A stretch of 32,875 bases of DNA, taken from Minisyncoccota bacterium (GTDB lineage: Bacteria; Patescibacteriota; Minisyncoccia; Minisyncoccales; Minisyncoccaceae). Positions 14,899 through 24,538 of this stretch are shown here, piece by piece (position 1 is the first letter of the stretch; the number at the start of each line of letters is the position of its first letter). The translations under genes were made by a program, and so were the position numbers. The DNA is taken from positions 7,742-40,616 of the forward strand of contig JAQUWR010000003.1 of NCBI GenBank assembly GCA_028692745.1, given 5' to 3'. The notes below the pieces were generated by a model, which made no database searches, was not told the DNA's origin, and was given only the letters and a program-made list of their open reading frames with translations.

Positions 14899-14927
14899 TT
14901 GACAAAAAATAATTTTACAGAGATAAT
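14899..14927 (+). promoter_or_regulatory. Promoter of the giant secreted protein genes
   Basis: Perfect TTGACA (14899-14904), a 17-bp spacer and GATAAT (14922-14927). The start would be near 14934, giving a leader of about 150 nt that carries a small ORF and a strong hairpin. Confidence 0.78.
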
Positions 14928-14960
14928 AAAATAAAGTTAATCATAAAAGGTGAGGTGTTT

Positions 14961-15047
14961 ATGAAAAAGCTTTTATTTTGTAGGAATTTTTCCGGTTATT
15001 TAATTAATAAATTTTTTAATATAAAGATGTTCTTTAGCATATGCTAA
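14961..15047 (+). CDS. Possible 28-residue leader peptide
   Basis: The ATG at 14961 opens a 28-codon frame ending in TAA at 15045-15047, too short for the ORF track. It is preceded by AGGTGAGGTG, the only clear Shine-Dalgarno-like sequence I found before any start in the window. The peptide begins MKKLLFCRNFSGYLINK and is basic and hydrophobic, with no run of one amino acid as in classical attenuator peptides. Its stop codon lies inside the perfect palindrome at 15031-15050, so a ribosome finishing the ORF would cover the first arm of the hairpin. That geometry suggests translation-controlled read-through into the surface-protein genes. It could also be a chance ORF within a structured leader RNA. 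Confidence 0.45.
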   Translation: MKKLLFCRNFSGYLINKFFNIKMFFSIC

Positions 15048-15056
15048 AGATTTTTT
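15031..15056 (+). terminator. Perfect palindrome with T-run: attenuator-type terminator in the surface-gene leader
   Basis: TCTTTAGCATATGCTAAAGA is a perfect 20-bp palindrome. As RNA it gives an 8-bp stem with an ATAT loop, followed by six T. It lies between the promoter and the start of the first giant gene at 15085, so full termination here would silence both giant genes. As DNA it could also be a dimeric operator. Confidence 0.72.
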
Positions 15057-15084
15057 AATACAAAAAATATAATAAAAAATAAAC

Positions 15085-18000
15085 ATGAATAATAAAATTT
15101 TTAAAACAATACTTTTCTTTTCAATAATGTCGATGATTTTTGTTGGAGGAAATGTTTTTGCTGCTAGTTGTGGATTAGCCACTGAACAATCATGGGGATA
15201 TTGGGATCCATATCCTTCAGAAAGTTTATTGTGTAGTGATGGTAATTTTGTATCAGGAACGATGATGTATAACTCAACTGATGAAACTTGGTTTTGGGCT
15301 TGTTCTGGCGGAGAAGAAGGATCACCTTATGTTTTTTGTAATGCTTCAATGATAGCGAACAATGGATGGAAAGTGAAAGCTCCTTGGGCTTATCCAAGGA
15401 CGGCTCATACGGTTGCATCCAGTAGTAGTAAGATTTATGCGATTGGAGGATATCGTCTTCCTTTAGAAGGTCCTTATAATGCTATAGAAGAGTATAATCC
15501 GTCTAGCAACGTGTGGACAGCAAAAAGTCATACTAATTCGTATGATCGTGGTATGGCAGCATATGTTGATGGTTATGTATATTTTATGGGCGGGAAAGAA
15601 TCAATATATATTGATTCAAATAAAAGATATCGCATATCAAATGATTCTTGGGCAGCGAGGGCTGATATGCCTACTGCTAGAGAGAGTGCTACCACAGCCG
15701 TGGTAAATAATAAAATTTATGTGATAGGGGGGAGAAATTCTGATGGTGTTTTAAATACAAACGAAGAGTATGATCCAGCTACAAATACCTGGACCACCAA
15801 AGCATCCATGCCTACTAAAAGATATGTGACGGGAGCAGTAACCGTCAATAATAAAATTTATGTGATAGGGGGTTATGTGCCTCATCTTCCTGGGTCAACG
15901 GGAGTAAACGAGGAATACGATCCAGCTACAAATACCTGGACCACCAAAGCATCCATGCCAACGCCTAGGGGACATGTTTTTCCTGTAGTATATAATAATA
16001 AAATTTATGTGATAGGGGGGTATAACACAATTCTTAATTCATGGGTAACCGTTAATGAAGTTTATGACCCAGTCACTGATACTTGGGTCACTGCGGATAG
16101 CTTGCCTCAAGCTGTAAGCGATGCTGTTGTCGCCGTTGCTAACGATAAAATTTATGTTATGGGTGGATATGATGGAAAAATTAATTTAGTATATGACCCA
16201 ACCTCTGTAGCTGTTGATGGTGTTTGCGGTTCTTCTAGCGGAGGAATTTTTTCATCAGAATTAGATATTGTTAATCTTTGTGATAAAGGAGAAAATACAG
16301 AAATTAGTTATAATGGAGGATTAAATAATACATGGACATGGAGTTGTACAGGAATTAATGAAGGAAGTACAGCAAATTGTTCAGCAGGTGCTCCAGCTCC
16401 AGCTGGTACATTTGACAGCGTCGAATATAATGGCTCGGGAATAGGAACAATCTCGGTTAATGTTACAGAGTTATCTGTTGAGCCAACAAAATTACAAATA
16501 AGATGGAGTACAGAAAATAATCCACCAGAGGTTGAAGACATTAAAAAATGGGTTGATGTTTCAAGTACAGGAATTAAAACAGTTTCAATGGAAGATCTTG
16601 TTGATGGTGAAACATATTATGTTTCTGTTTTAATATCAGCAAATAATGTTTTAACTGATTTAGGAACAAAAACTTTAACAACAAACAACAAGCCAGTTAT
16701 TATTAATGGAACATTAAATTATTCAGTTAATGTTTCTGAACAAGTTAATTTTACTGGTTTTTCAGCTTCAGACGCTGACAATGATCTACTATCTTATTTA
16801 TGGTCATGCCTCCCTGAAAATGAAGGAGGAGGCACGTTTATTAATAGTAATTTAGCTAATCCTACATATATTGCGCCAGCTTCTCCAATAGAAGATGAAT
16901 GTTTTTTGTATGTATTTGATGGAAAAGAAGTAACATGGTCTGATATAGTTACAGTTTCAGTTACAGAAGAATCTAATGTCCAATGTGGTTCGTCTCATGG
17001 AGGATCATTTACAACTGCTCCTTCAACTAACCTATGTTTAGCTGGAACTCCAATCTTTATTACTAGTAATGGTTCTTGGTATTGGACATGTTCTTCTTGG
17101 GTACAAAAAGAGGAATATAGACCTTGGTCGGGAATATCAATGTCTTCAACAGGACAATATCAGACAGCGGTTACAAGGTGGACGCCCATTTCAGATTCAG
17201 AAATTTATATTTCAAGCGATTATGGTGCAACATGGACAATGGTAAAAAGCACTAGTGAATTAGGATGGTTTGACGTTGATGTTTCTTCAACAGGACAATA
17301 TCAAACAGCGGTTGGTCTATCAAAGATTCATACATCAAGCGATTATGGTGCAACATGGACTCAAAGAAAAAATGATTCGAATAATTATTATAAAGTTGCA
17401 ATTTCAAATGATGGAAAATATCAAACAGCAGGAACACAAGATTCTTACGATGGAAAAGTTTATACATCAAGTGATTATGGTGCAACATGGACCGCAACAT
17501 TATCTGGTACAGGGGGTCATTTTTTAGGAATAGATATTTCTTCAACAGGACAATATCAAACAGCATCTGAAACAAATAATATTATTTATACATCAAGTGA
17601 TTATGGTGCAACATGGACCGCAACATTATCTGGTACAGGGAGTGATTTTTATGGAATAGGTCTTTCTTCAACAGGACAATATCAAACAATAACGACTGAA
17701 AACGGAGTAATTTTTTCAAGCGATTATGGTGTAACATGGACATCGAATAATCTAGATGCCTATTTACGAGAGGTAGATGTTTCAGATAGTGGTCAAATTC
17801 AGGTTGCGGTTGGTAAAGAAATTTATACATCAAGTGATTATGGTGCAACATGGACCGCAACATTATCTGGTACAGGGAGTGATTTTTATGGAATAGGTCT
17901 TTCTTCAACAGGACAATATCAAACAGCAGTTGCTTATCTTCATAAAGAAGGGTCTGCATGGATATACAATGGACCTATGTATACCTCTAATGATTATGAA

Positions 18001-20061
18001 ACAAATGTTTCTTGCTTTGCTTACAAAACCACTTGTGGCTCTTCAAGCGGAGGAAGTTTTTCTTCTGAATTAGAGATTACTAATCTTTGTGAATTCGGAC
18101 AGCCTTCTTTGATAACAATTAATTCTTCAACATATACGTGGACCTGTACTGGAGACGATTCGTTGCCGATAAGTTGTTCGGCAACTAGGTTAACTTCTGA
18201 ATTTAGTTGTGGCGATAATTTTACAGATTCTCGTGACGGGCAAACATATTCTACTGTTCAAATAGGTGATTATTGTTGGATGAAAGAAAATTTAAATTAT
18301 GCAGCAGAAAACAGCTCTTGTTATGATAATAATCTTGCTAATTGTGATGTATATGGAAGATTGTATCATCATGAAGAGTCTTTAAATGCTTGTCCTTCGG
18401 GTTGGCATTTAGCAAGCAAAGAAGAATTTGATAGCTTGTTTTCTTTGACCGCGGACATTACGAGAGATCTTTTGGCTACTCCTCCTGCTTGGGTCGGTGA
18501 AAATCTTACTGGTTTTTCAGCTCTTCCTGCAGGGGGATGGAATATTCTTGAAACAAATCCATATACATATTTAAACCTTGGTTCTGCTGCTTATTTTTGG
18601 GAATGGTTTTCTCCTTTTTATGTATGGTTTTTTGGTGATATTGGTCCTCTTGAATGTGGTTATTCGTGTATATATCCTCATGATGAGCTTAGCGGGAAAA
18701 TTAGAATCTACTGGGCGCCTCCTTGTTCTTCGAAAGATATCGCTATTTCGGCTCGATGCGTCAAGGATTATAATCAAAAACCAATAATCACTAATGGTGT
18801 TTTAGATTATTCAGTTAATGTTTCTGAACAAGTTAATTTTACTGGTTTTTCAGCCTCAGACCCTGATGAAGACGATTTATTTTATAGATGGACATGTTCT
18901 TGTTCTGAAGGAGCATTTGTTGATGACTCTGTAATCAATCCTACATATATTGCTCCAGCTTCTCCAGTAGAAGATGCATGTTCTTTGTATGTATTTGATG
19001 GTACAGAAATAGTTTTCTCTGATCCAGTTACAGTTTCAGTTACAGAAGAATCTATCGATGGTGTTTGTGCAACTAATTCAGAAATATATTCAGAAATGCC
19101 TGTAAATCGATGTGTTTCAGGAATTTCAATTAATGAAAATATAGGATCAACATCATATACTTGGCAATGTCAAGGAAATAACTCTACAGTTGATTGTTCT
19201 GCTGACAGGATTTCATTTAAAAATCCACTAGATTTTGATGTTGATAATACTGATGAATCTTGTTTCTATTGTGATTATTATTATGATAGTTCTGGAGTAT
19301 TAAGAAAAGGAAGTTTAAGCACTTCAACAGGAAGAGCTCAGCCAATATTAGGATTTATAGTAAATAATACAAAATATATTAACTATAAAGTCAGAGTTGG
19401 AAGTGTAGAGACCACAAGTTGGCTTCCAATAAATAATCAGTCAATAGAATATACTGGTTTAATGGTGGGAGAAGGCGTAACAACAGACATTGCATTAAGT
19501 AATTATACTTTATTAATTTCTTATGGAAACGGAACTATTGGAAAAACATATAATTGGTATGTTAATTTAGAAAAACAAGGAGGGGGTGAAACTGGTTGGA
19601 TTTCAGCTGGAACATTTGACACTCCTAAAAAACCATATCCAATAGTTAGGATTGCTACTGCGTCAACAAATGTATATTTAAATACAGATGTTCAGTACTG
19701 TACAACAACAAATACTTTAAATAGAAATACTGATACAAGTGAATGTTTTGACATTTGCTGGACAGGGGAAGAAGATACAGCAAGCTTAACTTCATCTGAT
19801 TGGAAATGTAGTGTTTGTTATGATTCTTCTGGAAATAGAACGCTTTGTTCTACAAGCAATAGTCAATTCTCTTGGTTTTTACCTTTAACAGTAGGATCTT
19901 ATCAAAGTCAAACAGGAATAGATTCTCCTAATCCAATTTTTAAATATACTTCATTAATTGGAGATGAAAATCCAGGGTTAGCAATTACTGGTTCTGAGTG
20001 TGCTGCTGAAGGAGAGACAGGAACAACCGTTCCTTTACCAACATGGAGAGAAACCAATTAA
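15085..20061 (+). CDS. Giant secreted modular surface protein 1 (kelch, Asp-box, FISUMP)
   Basis: A 1658-residue exported protein; signal peptide at about 1-26 ending NVFA. Modules in order: a Cys-containing unit; six kelch repeats (about 93-375, each with an I/V-Y-x-x-GG core such as IYVIGGYV); Cys unit CGSSSGGIFSSE; a fibronectin-III-like region (about 442-533); an Ig/PKD-like domain (about 537-630); a Cys unit; six Asp-box repeats SSDYGATW plus one degenerate copy (about 672-972); another Cys unit; a FISUMP domain (about 1038-1231, WMKENLNY and CPSGWHLAS); a second Ig/PKD-like domain; a last Cys unit; and a C-terminal domain shared with the next gene, ending VPLPTWRETN. No LPXTG or other known anchor and no C-terminal membrane helix is seen. 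It probably acts at the cell surface in adhesion or glycan binding; the ligand is unknown. Confidence 0.88.
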   Translation: MNNKIFKTILFFSIMSMIFVGGNVFAASCGLATEQSWGYWDPYPSESLLCSDGNFVSGTMMYNSTDETWFWACSGGEEGSPYVFCNASMIANNGWKVKAPWAYPRTAHTVASSSSKIYAIGGYRLPLEGPYNAIEEYNPSSNVWTAKSHTNSYDRGMAAYVDGYVYFMGGKESIYIDSNKRYRISNDSWAARADMPTARESATTAVVNNKIYVIGGRNSDGVLNTNEEYDPATNTWTTKASMPTKRYVTGAVTVNNKIYVIGGYVPHLPGSTGVNEEYDPATNTWTTKASMPTPRGHVFPVVYNNKIYVIGGYNTILNSWVTVNEVYDPVTDTWVTADSLPQAVSDAVVAVANDKIYVMGGYDGKINLVYDPTSVAVDGVCGSSSGGIFSSELDIVNLCDKGENTEISYNGGLNNTWTWSCTGINEGSTANCSAGAPAPAGTFDSVEYNGSGIGTISVNVTELSVEPTKLQIRWSTENNPPEVEDIKKWVDVSSTGIKTVSMEDLVDGETYYVSVLISANNVLTDLGTKTLTTNNKPVIINGTLNYSVNVSEQVNFTGFSASDADNDLLSYLWSCLPENEGGGTFINSNLANPTYIAPASPIEDECFLYVFDGKEVTWSDIVTVSVTEESNVQCGSSHGGSFTTAPSTNLCLAGTPIFITSNGSWYWTCSSWVQKEEYRPWSGISMSSTGQYQTAVTRWTPISDSEIYISSDYGATWTMVKSTSELGWFDVDVSSTGQYQTAVGLSKIHTSSDYGATWTQRKNDSNNYYKVAISNDGKYQTAGTQDSYDGKVYTSSDYGATWTATLSGTGGHFLGIDISSTGQYQTASETNNIIYTSSDYGATWTATLSGTGSDFYGIGLSSTGQYQTITTENGVIFSSDYGVTWTSNNLDAYLREVDVSDSGQIQVAVGKEIYTSSDYGATWTATLSGTGSDFYGIGLSSTGQYQTAVAYLHKEGSAWIYNGPMYTSNDYETNVSCFAYKTTCGSSSGGSFSSELEITNLCEFGQPSLITINSSTYTWTCTGDDSLPISCSATRLTSEFSCGDNFTDSRDGQTYSTVQIGDYCWMKENLNYAAENSSCYDNNLANCDVYGRLYHHEESLNACPSGWHLASKEEFDSLFSLTADITRDLLATPPAWVGENLTGFSALPAGGWNILETNPYTYLNLGSAAYFWEWFSPFYVWFFGDIGPLECGYSCIYPHDELSGKIRIYWAPPCSSKDIAISARCVKDYNQKPIITNGVLDYSVNVSEQVNFTGFSASDPDEDDLFYRWTCSCSEGAFVDDSVINPTYIAPASPVEDACSLYVFDGTEIVFSDPVTVSVTEESIDGVCATNSEIYSEMPVNRCVSGISINENIGSTSYTWQCQGNNSTVDCSADRISFKNPLDFDVDNTDESCFYCDYYYDSSGVLRKGSLSTSTGRAQPILGFIVNNTKYINYKVRVGSVETTSWLPINNQSIEYTGLMVGEGVTTDIALSNYTLLISYGNGTIGKTYNWYVNLEKQGGGETGWISAGTFDTPKKPYPIVRIATASTNVYLNTDVQYCTTTNTLNRNTDTSECFDICWTGEEDTASLTSSDWKCSVCYDSSGNRTLCSTSNSQFSWFLPLTVGSYQSQTGIDSPNPIFKYTSLIGDENPGLAITGSECAAEGETGTTVPLPTWRETN
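15772..15959 (+). repeat. 41-bp identical repeat within the kelch region
   Basis: GATCCAGCTACAAATACCTG and the following 21 bases occur identically at 15772-15812 and 15919-15959. They encode the same segment of two successive kelch blades (DPATNTWTTKASMP). Identity at the third codon positions points to recent duplication or gene conversion. Confidence 0.85.
16718..18854 (+). repeat. 49-bp repeat shared by the two Ig/PKD-like domains
   Basis: A 49-bp stretch at 16718-16766 is identical at 18806-18854. It encodes YSVNVSEQVNFTGFSA at the start of both Ig/PKD-like domains, which flank the Asp-box propeller and the FISUMP domain. The entry spans both copies; the DNA between them is not part of the repeat. 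Confidence 0.85.
17584..17925 (+). repeat. 105-bp perfect direct repeats in the Asp-box propeller
   Basis: 17584-17688 and 17821-17925 are identical over 105 bp (offset 237 bp, 79 codons). A third, partly diverged copy lies at about 17460-17570. Each encodes one Asp-box blade (SSDYGATWTATLSGTG). The in-frame offset keeps the propeller readable and would let blade number change by recombination. Confidence 0.9.
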
Positions 20062-20086
20062 TAATTAAATAATAAAAAATAAACTT

Positions 20087-23000
20087 ATGAAAAATCAAAA
20101 ACATCTACAATTAATTATTCTTTCTTTATTTTTGGTTTTTGGTTTTGCTATACAGTCTGTTTTTGCAGCACCTGTTTGTGGAAATGCTACTACTTGTAAC
20201 TGGAAAAGCGAAGCAGATATAGTAAGTTCAAATGGTGGATCAACCCCTTATCCTGGTTTTAAAATGTGTTCTGTTGGAATATCTCATAATTTACATATGA
20301 TAAGGGATGGCCTTACAATACTTGGTTTTGGGTGGGATTGTATAGACAATACAACTGTTCAATGTACTGCTGGTTATGCTTCTACTTCTTATTGCCCGAC
20401 TATAATTAATGGTGTTTGCGGATCGTCTAATGGCGGAACATTTTCAACTGCTCCTTCAACAAATCTTTGTAGCACAGGAACAGCCTCTTCAGTAACAACT
20501 GGATCAACAACCTACACCTGGACTTGTGCTGGTTCTGGTGGTGGAACAACAGCAAGCTGTTCTGCGAATAGAGCTGTTGTTAATGGTGTTTGTGGTTCTG
20601 TTAACAACACCAATGTTACTTCTTTAACTTCTTCTTCTCCTAATCTTTGTTCTTCTGGAACAGTTTCTAATTGGAATGCTCCACCTGTATATAGTTCGTA
20701 TTGGTGGATATGTGATGGTTCAGGAGGAGGAACTAATTCTGATTGGTGTGTTGCTCATATAATAGTTAATGGTGCTTGTGGATCTCAAAGCAGCCCAACA
20801 AGTGGAGGAGTAACTAGTGGTTCTTTAACTTCTTCTTCTCCTAATCTTTGTTCTTTAGGAACAGTTGCCAATTTTCAAATATTTAATGGAGGAGACGGAG
20901 ATGCATATTGGTGGAATTGTAGTGGTGCATATGGAGGAACCAATTCTGATTGGTGTTTAATTCACATCAAACAAAATGGTGTTCTTGGAACTGCTAATGG
21001 TCATACTTATGCATCAACTGATACTTCTTGGGGAAGCTATACTCAATGTAGTGTAGGAAATCCTTCAAATACAACTTTTCCTTCTCAAGGCGGATCAACA
21101 AGTTGGTATTGTTCTGGTTTATGGACTGGAACAAATAGTGGAACAGGAATAGCCTATAGATCAGCCCCTGTAATTAATGGTTCTTGTGGGTCTGCTAAGG
21201 GTCATGGATATCCTTCAACCTCATATATTGATACATCAGCTGAAAGGTGTGCAGTTGGAACATTTACATCTTTTACTGATAATGGTTCTTCTTGGAGTTG
21301 GTCTTGTAGTGGTTCTGGAGGAGGAACAACAGCTTCATGTTCTGCTCCTAAGGTTTCTTGTGGATCATATCATAACACAACAAGAAGAGATCAACCTTCA
21401 ACTAATCTTTGTACATATGGAAGCAACACAACATTAAGTCTTGCAAGTAATAAATGGTCATGGTCTTGTACTAATAATCCAGGTATCAATGCTTCTTGTT
21501 ATACTTACAAAACAAGTTGTGGATCATCTAATGGCGGAACATATACATCTGTTCCAACAAGTCTTTGTACTTATGGTACAGCCTCTAGTGTAACAAGCGG
21601 AACATCAACCTATACCTGGACTTGTACAGGAAACGACTCTTTACCAGTTAGTTGTTCAGCTACGAGAAATTATGTAGTAACCTATACTTCATCAACAGGA
21701 GGTTCTTGTACTCCTTCTAGCCGAACAGTAGCCTATAATGGAACATCAGCTGCACCAGCTTGTACACCAAGCTCAGGATATATTTTGGTTGGCTTTACTA
21801 GAACTAGTGGATCTGGTGGAACCCTTAATACTTCTACTGGAGCAGTCACTGGTGTTACTGGAAGTCAAACCATTAGAGCAGATTTTGGTCTTAATGGTTC
21901 TTGTGGAACTGCTGATGGTCATACTTATGCATCAACTGATTCTTCTTGGACTCCATATACTCAATGTGCCACAGGAACTCCTTCTAGTACAACATTTCCA
22001 GAACCAGGAGCTTCAGCAACCTGGACTTGCTTAGGACAAAACGGAGGAACTGATAGTGGAACTTGTAGTGCATCAAGAACAGTAGGAATTTCTTGCGGAT
22101 CATATCATAACACAACAAGAAAAGATCAACCTTCAACTAATCTTTGTGTTTCTAGTGCTAATACATCATTGGTTTTAAACAATAATACTTGGTATTGGAA
22201 TTGTGAAAGTGAACCAGAAACACCAGCTGCTTGTTATACTTACAAAACAAGTTGTGGATCATCAAACGGAGGAACCTTTGTTTCTGCTCCAGAAACAAAC
22301 CTTTGTACATATGGAGACCCTTCTTCAGTAACAACTGGATCAACAACCTATACTTGGACTTGTACAGGAGATGATTCATTAACTGTTAGTTGTTCAGCAA
22401 CAATAGATAATTCAGTTGATGGTCTTTGTGGATCATCTAATGGTGGATCATTTACAACCGCTCCTTTAACAAATTTATGTGATGCAGGAAATCCTTCTGA
22501 AGTTATTGACAATACAACAACATTTGATTGGACTTGTACTGGAATAAACGGTGGATCAACAGCATCGTGTTCAGCAATTCAATTAGATCAAGCTGCTTGT
22601 GGGTCAGCAGATGGCGGATCCTTTGCAACAACTCCTTCAAGCAATTTATGTAGCGAGGGAATAGCTACAGAAGTTTTAGGAACAGGTCCTTGGACGTGGA
22701 GTTGCGAAACAGAAGGAACAACCTGGCTTGAAGGATATGATTACAGGAAAGAAGTTGAATTTACTAATTCAGGTTCAGTTTTAACAAATTATCAGATGCA
22801 AATAACGGTTTCTTATGATTCAGATATGCAAGTAGATTTTGATGATATACGTTTTACTGATTCTACTGGCATAACAGAATTAAATTATTGGAGAGAGTCA
22901 AAAGTAGATTCATCTACAGCTACTTTTTGGGTAAAGGTTCCATCAATTGCTAGTGGAAGTTCTAGTATATATATGTATTATGGAAATGATTCTGTTTCTA

Positions 23001-24499
23001 CTACATCTAACGAAGCTAATGTTTTTGATTTTGTTGATTATTTTGATGATGGAAGTGTTTCTGATTGGACAGTTTCTTATGCATATAAAGATGGGTCAGA
23101 TGCTGGTAGTATGTCTGCAACAACAGCACAAAAAGTATCAGGAAGTTATAGTTTGTATTTGTACAGTAAGTCTCATTGTAATCATTCTCCTTGGGACGGA
23201 ATATATACTTATGCTAACAAATCATTAAATTTTGAAGCAGGAACATATATTGCTACTTTTTATGTTAAAGCCACAGGAGGACAATATACTTATTGCAGAA
23301 CTGGAACCATTCCAGATGCATCAGCATTAATAGATGGAACTGTTATTAAATCATTAAGCAATATTAGTTATTCAGGATGTAGCACGTCTAATACGGTTAA
23401 TTGGACAAGTCTTACTTCTAATAGTTTTACTTTAACTGAAGGAACCCATACTTTTAAAGTAAGGAGCAGGGCAACTGATTGTGAAGAAGTTAGAACTTAT
23501 TGGGATAACGTTAAGATTAGAAAATATACTGATTCTGTTCCATCCGTGGTATTTAAAGATGAAGAATCAGAAGTAGCAGGTACTGTTGCTTATTGTTCAG
23601 CTAATTTATTAGACGCTCCTTCAGCTACTAGTCTTTCAAATCCATTAGATATAGATAGCAATGCTTCTTGTTGGTATTGCGATAAATATTTAGAAGAAAC
23701 AAGTGTAATTTCAGGAAAGTCAGGAAACTTAGAATTTAAGTTTACTTATACTGATTCAGATTCAGAAGCAAAGATTATTGGTTATGATTTTGCAATATCA
23801 CAAGGATCAGATCCTTTGAATCCAGTATTTTCAGATTCTATTGATTTAAGCATTAATCCTCTTTCTCCTAACACAATAATAACCTATAACAATGCTTCGG
23901 TTAAAAGAAGTGGAGAAAATGAATTATTATTTTTAAAACAAATAGCTTATAATAAAATATATAATTGGTGGGTTAAAGTATATAATGATAAAGGAGCAAG
24001 TTCTGATTGGGTTCAAGCCTCTTCTACATTTACCACTCCTTCCCGTGCTTTTCCATTAGTAAGAGTTGTTCCGCAAAAGTCTAGTCTTGTTTTAGATGAA
24101 AGCACATTAATGTGTTCAACAACAGATAGTGTATATAGAGGAGAAGATCAAAGTGGATGTTTTGATGCTTGTTGGACAGGAGAAGGGGATACAGCTATTT
24201 TAGATCCAAACAATTTAGATAATGGGTGGAATTGTAGTATTTGTTATAACACTAGCCAAAGTCCTGTTCTTTGTTCTTCAGGAAATAATAATACTTTTAC
24301 ATGGTCATTGGTTAATGGTTCAGCAGATTTAACTAACACTACAAACAATAATGTTACAATTACTGCTACAAATACTGGAGAAGAAATAAGGACAAGACTA
24401 TTAATTACTGGTTCTGATGGCTGTGCAGGAGAACAAGGAGAAGGAGAAGGGTCATATCCTAGTTTACCATTGCCAACATGGAAAGAAGTTGGAAATTAG
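20087..24499 (+). CDS. Giant secreted modular surface protein 2 (Cys-rich repeats, DUF2341)
   Basis: A 1470-residue exported protein; signal peptide at about 1-27 ending SVFA. About twelve Cys-containing units follow (roughly 105-880), each built on CGSSNGGT, then a Leu-Cys, TYTWTC and SCSA. Near 529-600 they are interrupted by an InlB-repeat-like segment (VTYTSSTGGSC, SGYILVGFT). A DUF2341 domain lies at about 882-967 (DYRKEVEFTNSG, YWRESKVDSSTATFWVKVP, IYMYYGND), followed by a jelly-roll or LamG-like region to about 1165. The C-terminal domain, about 1174-1470, is the one shared with protein 1 (SCWYCDKY, CFDACWTGEGDTA, LPLPTWKE). It starts 25 nt after protein 1 and is probably co-transcribed. 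Role inferred: surface adhesion or carbohydrate binding. Paired cysteines suggest disulfide-stabilised units. Confidence 0.86.
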   Translation: MKNQKHLQLIILSLFLVFGFAIQSVFAAPVCGNATTCNWKSEADIVSSNGGSTPYPGFKMCSVGISHNLHMIRDGLTILGFGWDCIDNTTVQCTAGYASTSYCPTIINGVCGSSNGGTFSTAPSTNLCSTGTASSVTTGSTTYTWTCAGSGGGTTASCSANRAVVNGVCGSVNNTNVTSLTSSSPNLCSSGTVSNWNAPPVYSSYWWICDGSGGGTNSDWCVAHIIVNGACGSQSSPTSGGVTSGSLTSSSPNLCSLGTVANFQIFNGGDGDAYWWNCSGAYGGTNSDWCLIHIKQNGVLGTANGHTYASTDTSWGSYTQCSVGNPSNTTFPSQGGSTSWYCSGLWTGTNSGTGIAYRSAPVINGSCGSAKGHGYPSTSYIDTSAERCAVGTFTSFTDNGSSWSWSCSGSGGGTTASCSAPKVSCGSYHNTTRRDQPSTNLCTYGSNTTLSLASNKWSWSCTNNPGINASCYTYKTSCGSSNGGTYTSVPTSLCTYGTASSVTSGTSTYTWTCTGNDSLPVSCSATRNYVVTYTSSTGGSCTPSSRTVAYNGTSAAPACTPSSGYILVGFTRTSGSGGTLNTSTGAVTGVTGSQTIRADFGLNGSCGTADGHTYASTDSSWTPYTQCATGTPSSTTFPEPGASATWTCLGQNGGTDSGTCSASRTVGISCGSYHNTTRKDQPSTNLCVSSANTSLVLNNNTWYWNCESEPETPAACYTYKTSCGSSNGGTFVSAPETNLCTYGDPSSVTTGSTTYTWTCTGDDSLTVSCSATIDNSVDGLCGSSNGGSFTTAPLTNLCDAGNPSEVIDNTTTFDWTCTGINGGSTASCSAIQLDQAACGSADGGSFATTPSSNLCSEGIATEVLGTGPWTWSCETEGTTWLEGYDYRKEVEFTNSGSVLTNYQMQITVSYDSDMQVDFDDIRFTDSTGITELNYWRESKVDSSTATFWVKVPSIASGSSSIYMYYGNDSVSTTSNEANVFDFVDYFDDGSVSDWTVSYAYKDGSDAGSMSATTAQKVSGSYSLYLYSKSHCNHSPWDGIYTYANKSLNFEAGTYIATFYVKATGGQYTYCRTGTIPDASALIDGTVIKSLSNISYSGCSTSNTVNWTSLTSNSFTLTEGTHTFKVRSRATDCEEVRTYWDNVKIRKYTDSVPSVVFKDEESEVAGTVAYCSANLLDAPSATSLSNPLDIDSNASCWYCDKYLEETSVISGKSGNLEFKFTYTDSDSEAKIIGYDFAISQGSDPLNPVFSDSIDLSINPLSPNTIITYNNASVKRSGENELLFLKQIAYNKIYNWWVKVYNDKGASSDWVQASSTFTTPSRAFPLVRVVPQKSSLVLDESTLMCSTTDSVYRGEDQSGCFDACWTGEGDTAILDPNNLDNGWNCSICYNTSQSPVLCSSGNNNTFTWSLVNGSADLTNTTNNNVTITATNTGEEIRTRLLITGSDGCAGEQGEGEGSYPSLPLPTWKEVGN

Positions 24500-24513
24500 C
24501 CTAAAATCATTAA

Positions 24514-24538
24514 ACTCTTGTATTTACAAGGGTTTTTT
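24514..24538 (+). terminator. Intrinsic terminator after the giant secreted proteins
   Basis: ACTCTTGT, an ATTT loop and ACAAGGGT form an 8-bp stem with one T-G pair, followed by six T. It lies 14 nt after the stop of protein 2 and closes the surface operon. Confidence 0.85.

Follow-up and report, generated by a model that had tools for sequence, protein, structure and literature searches.

A genus-restricted leader with a conserved 5' block and a terminator-like hairpin before giant surface-protein genes of Patescibacteria, a candidate transcription attenuator

The pyrBI leader of Escherichia coli is of the ribosome-coupled type of attenuator, and the RfaH/ops and LoaP leaders are known for the processive antitermination of long operons. 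To our knowledge, gene regulation in Patescibacteria is almost unstudied; the genus considered here consists of tiny, probably host-dependent bacteria, and the giant surface proteins of Patescibacteria are a likely means of host contact. Leaders that carry a premature terminator have been described (PMC2965389), and an E. coli terminator placed right after a translated gene is nearly fully repressed (PMC4824070). A survey of ribosome binding (PMC10783764) assigns several candidate phyla of this kind to a class without CCUCC and without Shine-Dalgarno binding, its category iv listing, for example, Wolfebacteria and Campbellbacteria. Our search of the literature returned nothing that deals directly with the anti-Shine-Dalgarno or with attenuation in Patescibacteria. 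Here, we describe a leader that precedes two giant surface-protein genes, and we discuss how it may control them.

The window, that is, the whole stretch of 32,875 nucleotides that was analysed, belongs to a genome of 553,530 bases in 30 contigs, and carries in order nusA, tig, clpP, the leader, two surface genes of 1658 and 1470 residues, RNase Y and HU. The 3' end of clpP is marked by a short hairpin with a T tract, upstream of the leader promoter. This promoter (-35 TTGACA at 14899-14904, a spacer of 17, -10 GATAAT at 14922-14927) matches the consensus at 11 of 12 positions and ranks first among the 66 promoter-like sites in the 13 kb scanned; its -35 and -10 are kept in all five species compared, the -10 reading TATAAT in the four relatives (G001 to G004). 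The perfect 20-bp palindrome TCTTTAGCATATGCTAAAGA fills 15031-15050 and is followed by six T (15051-15056), and the surface gene starts at 15085. The strong promoter, 28-codon reading frame, palindrome, T run and 1658-residue gene of the preliminary description were all found in place, and about 9.4 kb of surface genes do lie downstream of a conserved, terminator-bearing leader. The two surface genes presumably form one operon, with its probable end at a downstream hairpin (Table 1).

Table 1. Features of the leader and of the surface genes behind it (positions in the window)
Feature	Position	Strand	Remarks
Sigma-70-type promoter, TTGACA-17-GATAAT	14899..14927	+	Top-scoring among 66 candidates; conserved in 5/5 species
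5'-terminal conserved block, predicted hairpin	14933..14973	+	37/42 columns invariant; fold predicted; single copy in genome
AGGTGAGGTG, hairpin loop (read as Shine-Dalgarno in the preliminary description)	14948..14957	+	No anti-Shine-Dalgarno in 16S; no Shine-Dalgarno enrichment
28-codon reading frame, putative	14961..15047	+	Peptide poorly conserved
Variable linker	14974..15030	+	Right part of the segment common to G001 and G004
Intrinsic-terminator-like hairpin (8 bp, 4-nt loop) and T6	15031..15056	+	Stem invariant, loop variable, 5 species
Surface-type protein, 1658 residues (Kelch repeats, Fib_succ_major, weak PKD)	15085..20061	+	Start codon context open, A-rich
Second large protein, 1470 residues (DUF2341)	20087..24499	+	25 nt past first gene
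Terminator-like hairpin	24512..24535	+	Probable operon end

The preliminary description regarded AGGTGAGGTG as a Shine-Dalgarno site serving the mini-ORF, a claim that has to be abandoned in view of the 16S rRNA. The tail of the organism's own 16S (3' end at L067 14000-14060) carries GGATCAATTATTTT where GGATCACCTCC would be expected; the molecule ends GGATCAATTATTTTATAC, and other bacteria have GGATCACCTCC there. CCUCC is missing from every 16S end that could be read in the order (26 of 26; loci L100-L128 plus our own), so the whole order is without this anti-Shine-Dalgarno. Nor are Shine-Dalgarno words enriched before the genome's own genes of at least 150 codons (n = 378) relative to a control stretch farther upstream: GGAG occurs before 15 of 378 genes as against 20 of 374 controls, GAGG 8 times in both, and AGGT 8 times as against 12. 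Since the 16S lacks CCUCC and such words are not enriched, the usual pairing with the ribosome is not available to AGGTGAGGTG, and it is not a usable Shine-Dalgarno site in this organism. The case also shows that a string resembling a Shine-Dalgarno site must be compared with the 16S tail of the organism itself before it is built into a ribosome-based mechanism. As a separate observation, AATAATT, which is complementary to AATTATT of the 16S tail, occurs 39 times in the 22 nt upstream of the genome's genes as against 15 times in shuffles; this pairing is a possible replacement of the Shine-Dalgarno, confounded by the TAA stops of preceding genes.

The leader is present in one copy per genome in all five species of this genus of Patescibacteria, always between clpP and a surface gene (the G004 contig stops at the gene start). 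A covariance model run over 247 genomes of the order, the search that the preliminary description had proposed, found it in these five genus members and in none of the other 242; BLAST in 60 relatives returned only the genus members, an exact pattern search of the genome contigs gave three matches, all at the loci of G001, G002 and G003, and scans of 535,646 of the 553,530 bases of the genome itself found no second copy. No part of the leader matches an Rfam family at the gathering score, the window as a whole giving only tRNAs, on which ground a known riboswitch or other Rfam RNA was rejected. In sister genera the surface genes also follow clpP, but the promoter there is a plain one, the untranslated region is short and no leader is present. 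Paralogues of the surface gene were seen at L028 1501-1566 (G000:C2) and at about 12980 of L149 (G004:C6); they have a different promoter and no leader, and the sequence of their signal peptide is nearly identical to that of the gene at the clpP locus.

Conservation within the leader is distributed very unevenly. In the 5' block 37 of 42 columns are invariant among the five species, and in the inner stem of the terminator, CTTTAGC/GCTAAAG, all 14 bases are, with 0 of 4 in its loop; invariant columns make up 23 of 69 in the linker, and 8 of 61 among the fourfold-degenerate columns of clpP in the same comparison, which are saturated. This contrast with the clpP sites points to selection on the block and the terminator stem, and to much less on the linker. 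The block is predicted to fold, from about the expected +1, into the hairpin AAAGUU-aa-UCAUAAA-[AGGUGAGGUG]-UUUAUGA-aaa-AGCUUU, corresponding to the inverted repeat TCATAAA-N10-TTTATGA in the DNA, and in all five species the nearly invariant AGGTGAGGTG forms its 10-nt loop. Folding is slightly better than in shuffles (z of -1.7 to -2.3). The compensatory changes that had been looked for could not be had from these five species, in which the stem is conserved but varies too little for covariation to be informative. RNAalifold revealed no conserved antiterminator pairing that competes with the terminator, the 5' hairpin and the terminator forming together; a pairing of promoter-spacer bases with the linker was rejected, because the spacer bases lie upstream of the expected start of the transcript.

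By its form alone, a terminator-like hairpin says little in this DNA, as 10 were found in 13 kb where 5.7 +/- 2.9 are expected, a number not clearly above chance. Hairpins with a T tract nevertheless stand at 49 of 516 gene ends as against 2 in shuffled controls, and intrinsic termination is therefore clearly in use in this genome. The leader hairpin (-8.5 kcal/mol) falls in the middle of the range of the genome's own terminators; its position 34 nt before the ATG of the surface gene, together with its conservation, makes it a credible promoter-proximal terminator, and one that the sequence comparison supports well. Similar hairpins precede other genes, and several of these are evidently terminators of the gene before. 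Two others lie far from the preceding gene, namely TTAACCCAAGTAACATTGGGTTAA on the - strand of L063, 9 nt before a 981-nt gene, and one on the - strand of L077, 15 nt before a 741-nt gene; they may be attenuators as well, or mark where small RNAs end.

Taken together, these data argue for a promoter-proximal transcription attenuator specific to the genus, in which the invariant 5' block is most likely the regulated part; we give this reading a probability of about 0.5. RNA polymerase would start at the strong promoter, and the 5' end of the transcript would fold into the hairpin with its nearly invariant G-rich loop, followed by the variable linker. The polymerase would then meet the intrinsic terminator before the surface gene, where part of the transcripts would end near 15056, yielding a leader RNA about 120 nt long; the 9.4-kb surface-gene mRNA would come from read-through alone. 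The block may be the binding site of a trans-acting factor, or a structure that acts on the polymerase, and translation of the surface gene would begin at a separate start that is open, A-rich and not of the Shine-Dalgarno kind. In all five species a promoter lies upstream and a hairpin with a T tract stands between promoter and gene, and the form and conservation of promoter, block and terminator are matters of observation; termination in vivo, its partial and regulated character, and the role of the block as the sensor are what we infer. The reading is favoured because the leader occurs in the five genus members only and is lacking in sister genera, because its block and stem are invariant where clpP sites are saturated, because its hairpin lies within the range of the 49 gene-end terminators, and because the 16S has no anti-Shine-Dalgarno while the start of the 1658-residue gene is less folded than 91% of gene starts in the genome. 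Against it we count the modest z-scores of the 5' hairpin, the uninformative covariation, the lack of an antiterminator pairing and of a known factor, and the lack of a specialised NusG. Each of the five genus members has one NusG of the housekeeping type and no specialised paralogue, on which ground processive antitermination of the RfaH/LoaP type was rejected.

The leader also appears to mark the edge of an exchanged segment. G001 resembles G002 closely and G004 little throughout clpP, tig and the promoter, the identities at fourfold sites of clpP being 0.78 and 0.34, whereas from 14969 on, in the linker and terminator, it is 97-100% identical to G004 and only 52-64% to G002. Its ancestry switches somewhere from 14954 to 14969, a stretch that belongs to the right half of the 5' block. 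The G+C content of the G001 surface gene is 0.40 in its first 1.5 kb and 0.48 in its last part (0.47 in G001 clpP), and the 3' end of the gene matches G002 again. Because of this switch, the drop in G+C and the return to G002, G001 appears to have acquired from the other lineage a segment that begins within the block and takes in the greater part of the leader together with the 5' portion of the surface gene. The leader would thus also be the boundary of a surface-gene segment that passes horizontally between species, as judged from the one event seen, and the switch calls for nothing beyond ordinary homologous recombination where conservation is highest. If the attenuator reading is true, one small leader both determines how much of the surface proteins is produced and marks the edge of a swapped segment. 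Species differ in what they carry between clpP and RNase Y, with two surface genes in the window (15085-24499) and one mosaic gene in G001 (L129 4192-8598).

The main rival to this reading is the ribosome-controlled attenuation of the preliminary description, but without a Shine-Dalgarno, in which a ribosome starting at the ATG at 14961 would reach the palindrome and block the folding of the terminator, making transcription of the surface genes dependent on translation of the leader. The preliminary description had placed the stop of the mini-ORF within the palindrome, and this is true of the window (TAA at 15045-15047) and of G002, but not of G001, G004 and G003, where the frame continues past the hairpin; it stops 5 nt short of the ATG of the surface gene in G001, 2 nt short of it in G004, and overlaps it in G003. 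Across the five species its stop has no constant place relative to the hairpin. Conservation of the ORF likewise holds in part: no stop interrupts the frame ahead of the terminator in 5/5 species (a chance of 0.13-0.25 per linker, and of about 0.03 for two unrelated linkers), and its ATG and first codons are invariant, but beyond these the peptide changes freely and is poorly conserved. Changes at codon positions 1, 2 and 3 number 3, 4 and 9, a lean toward third positions that amounts to a weak coding signal. The open frame, its invariant start, this lean, the frame ends near the surface gene and the E. coli precedent (PMC4824070) all speak for the ribosome, and translation of the mini-ORF by the non-Shine-Dalgarno route of the lineage is possible. 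It would have to begin, with no anti-Shine-Dalgarno in the 16S, at an ATG that belongs to the 3' arm of the predicted hairpin and whose surroundings fold more stably than those of 93% of gene starts, behind a G-rich sequence that is unusual for the genome. The invariance also includes the loop upstream of the ATG, for which a Shine-Dalgarno-free start gives no explanation, and the peptide is poorly kept; we consider control by the ribosome less likely than the main reading.

That the invariant block acts as DNA, either as an operator (TCATAAA-N10-TTTATGA just past the start site) or as the core of a recombination site for the exchange of surface segments, would agree with its near-perfect invariance, its inverted repeats and the G001 switch in its right half. 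A site unique in the genome offers no second site for site-specific exchange within it, however; ordinary homologous recombination, too, would have its crossover where conservation is highest, the central 10 nt lack symmetry although they are conserved, and a single exchange event was seen; we hold this explanation to be quite improbable. The self-complete unit of promoter, hairpin and terminator could also be a separate gene for a small RNA of about 120 nt acting in trans, or the 5' hairpin could merely stabilise the mRNA, the surface gene being served by leakage or by a weak promoter of its own. For such a promoter one might adduce the TATAAT that occupies 15069-15074 of the window and recurs in G001 and G004. 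This downstream TATAAT is missing in G003, has no good -35 and is no surprise in DNA this rich in AT, and the linker would be most of the RNA, yet it lacks conservation, only 23 of its 69 columns being invariant; we regard this as the least probable of the alternatives weighed here. Returning to the attenuator, a further step would be that the Shine-Dalgarno-like sequence, kept nearly unchanged as the loop of a 5' hairpin although the lineage has no anti-Shine-Dalgarno, is a new kind of cis-regulatory element, and that the block is a fixed boundary at which species exchange attenuated surface-gene segments. We think this unlikely as a whole; it would mean a promoter that stays in place while the attenuated surface gene behind it is interchangeable.

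Compared with described systems, the organism resembles the Shine-Dalgarno-scarce bacteria of category iv (PMC10783764) in its 16S tail without CCUCC and its genes without Shine-Dalgarno enrichment, a trait that here spans one order (26 of 26 readable ends) and is not itself a regulatory system. With pyrBI-type attenuators the locus shares a short frame running through the terminator to the gene start in three relatives, although the frame in the window ends inside the terminator; here, no Shine-Dalgarno is possible, the peptide is putative, the ATG lies in a predicted hairpin, and there is no connection with pyrimidines. As in RfaH/ops and LoaP systems, a short conserved element stands at the 5' end of a long operon for surface proteins and is followed by a terminator, but each genome has one NusG of the housekeeping type and the element is not an ops sequence. 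In layout the locus resembles premature-terminator leaders (PMC2965389), which also have a promoter, a leader of about 120 nt and an intrinsic terminator just before the first gene, and which are likewise lineage-restricted and fast-evolving except for the terminator and one block; the leader described here differs in having no known ligand, T-box, riboswitch or amino-acid run and no Rfam entry, and in standing before giant surface genes in Patescibacteria.
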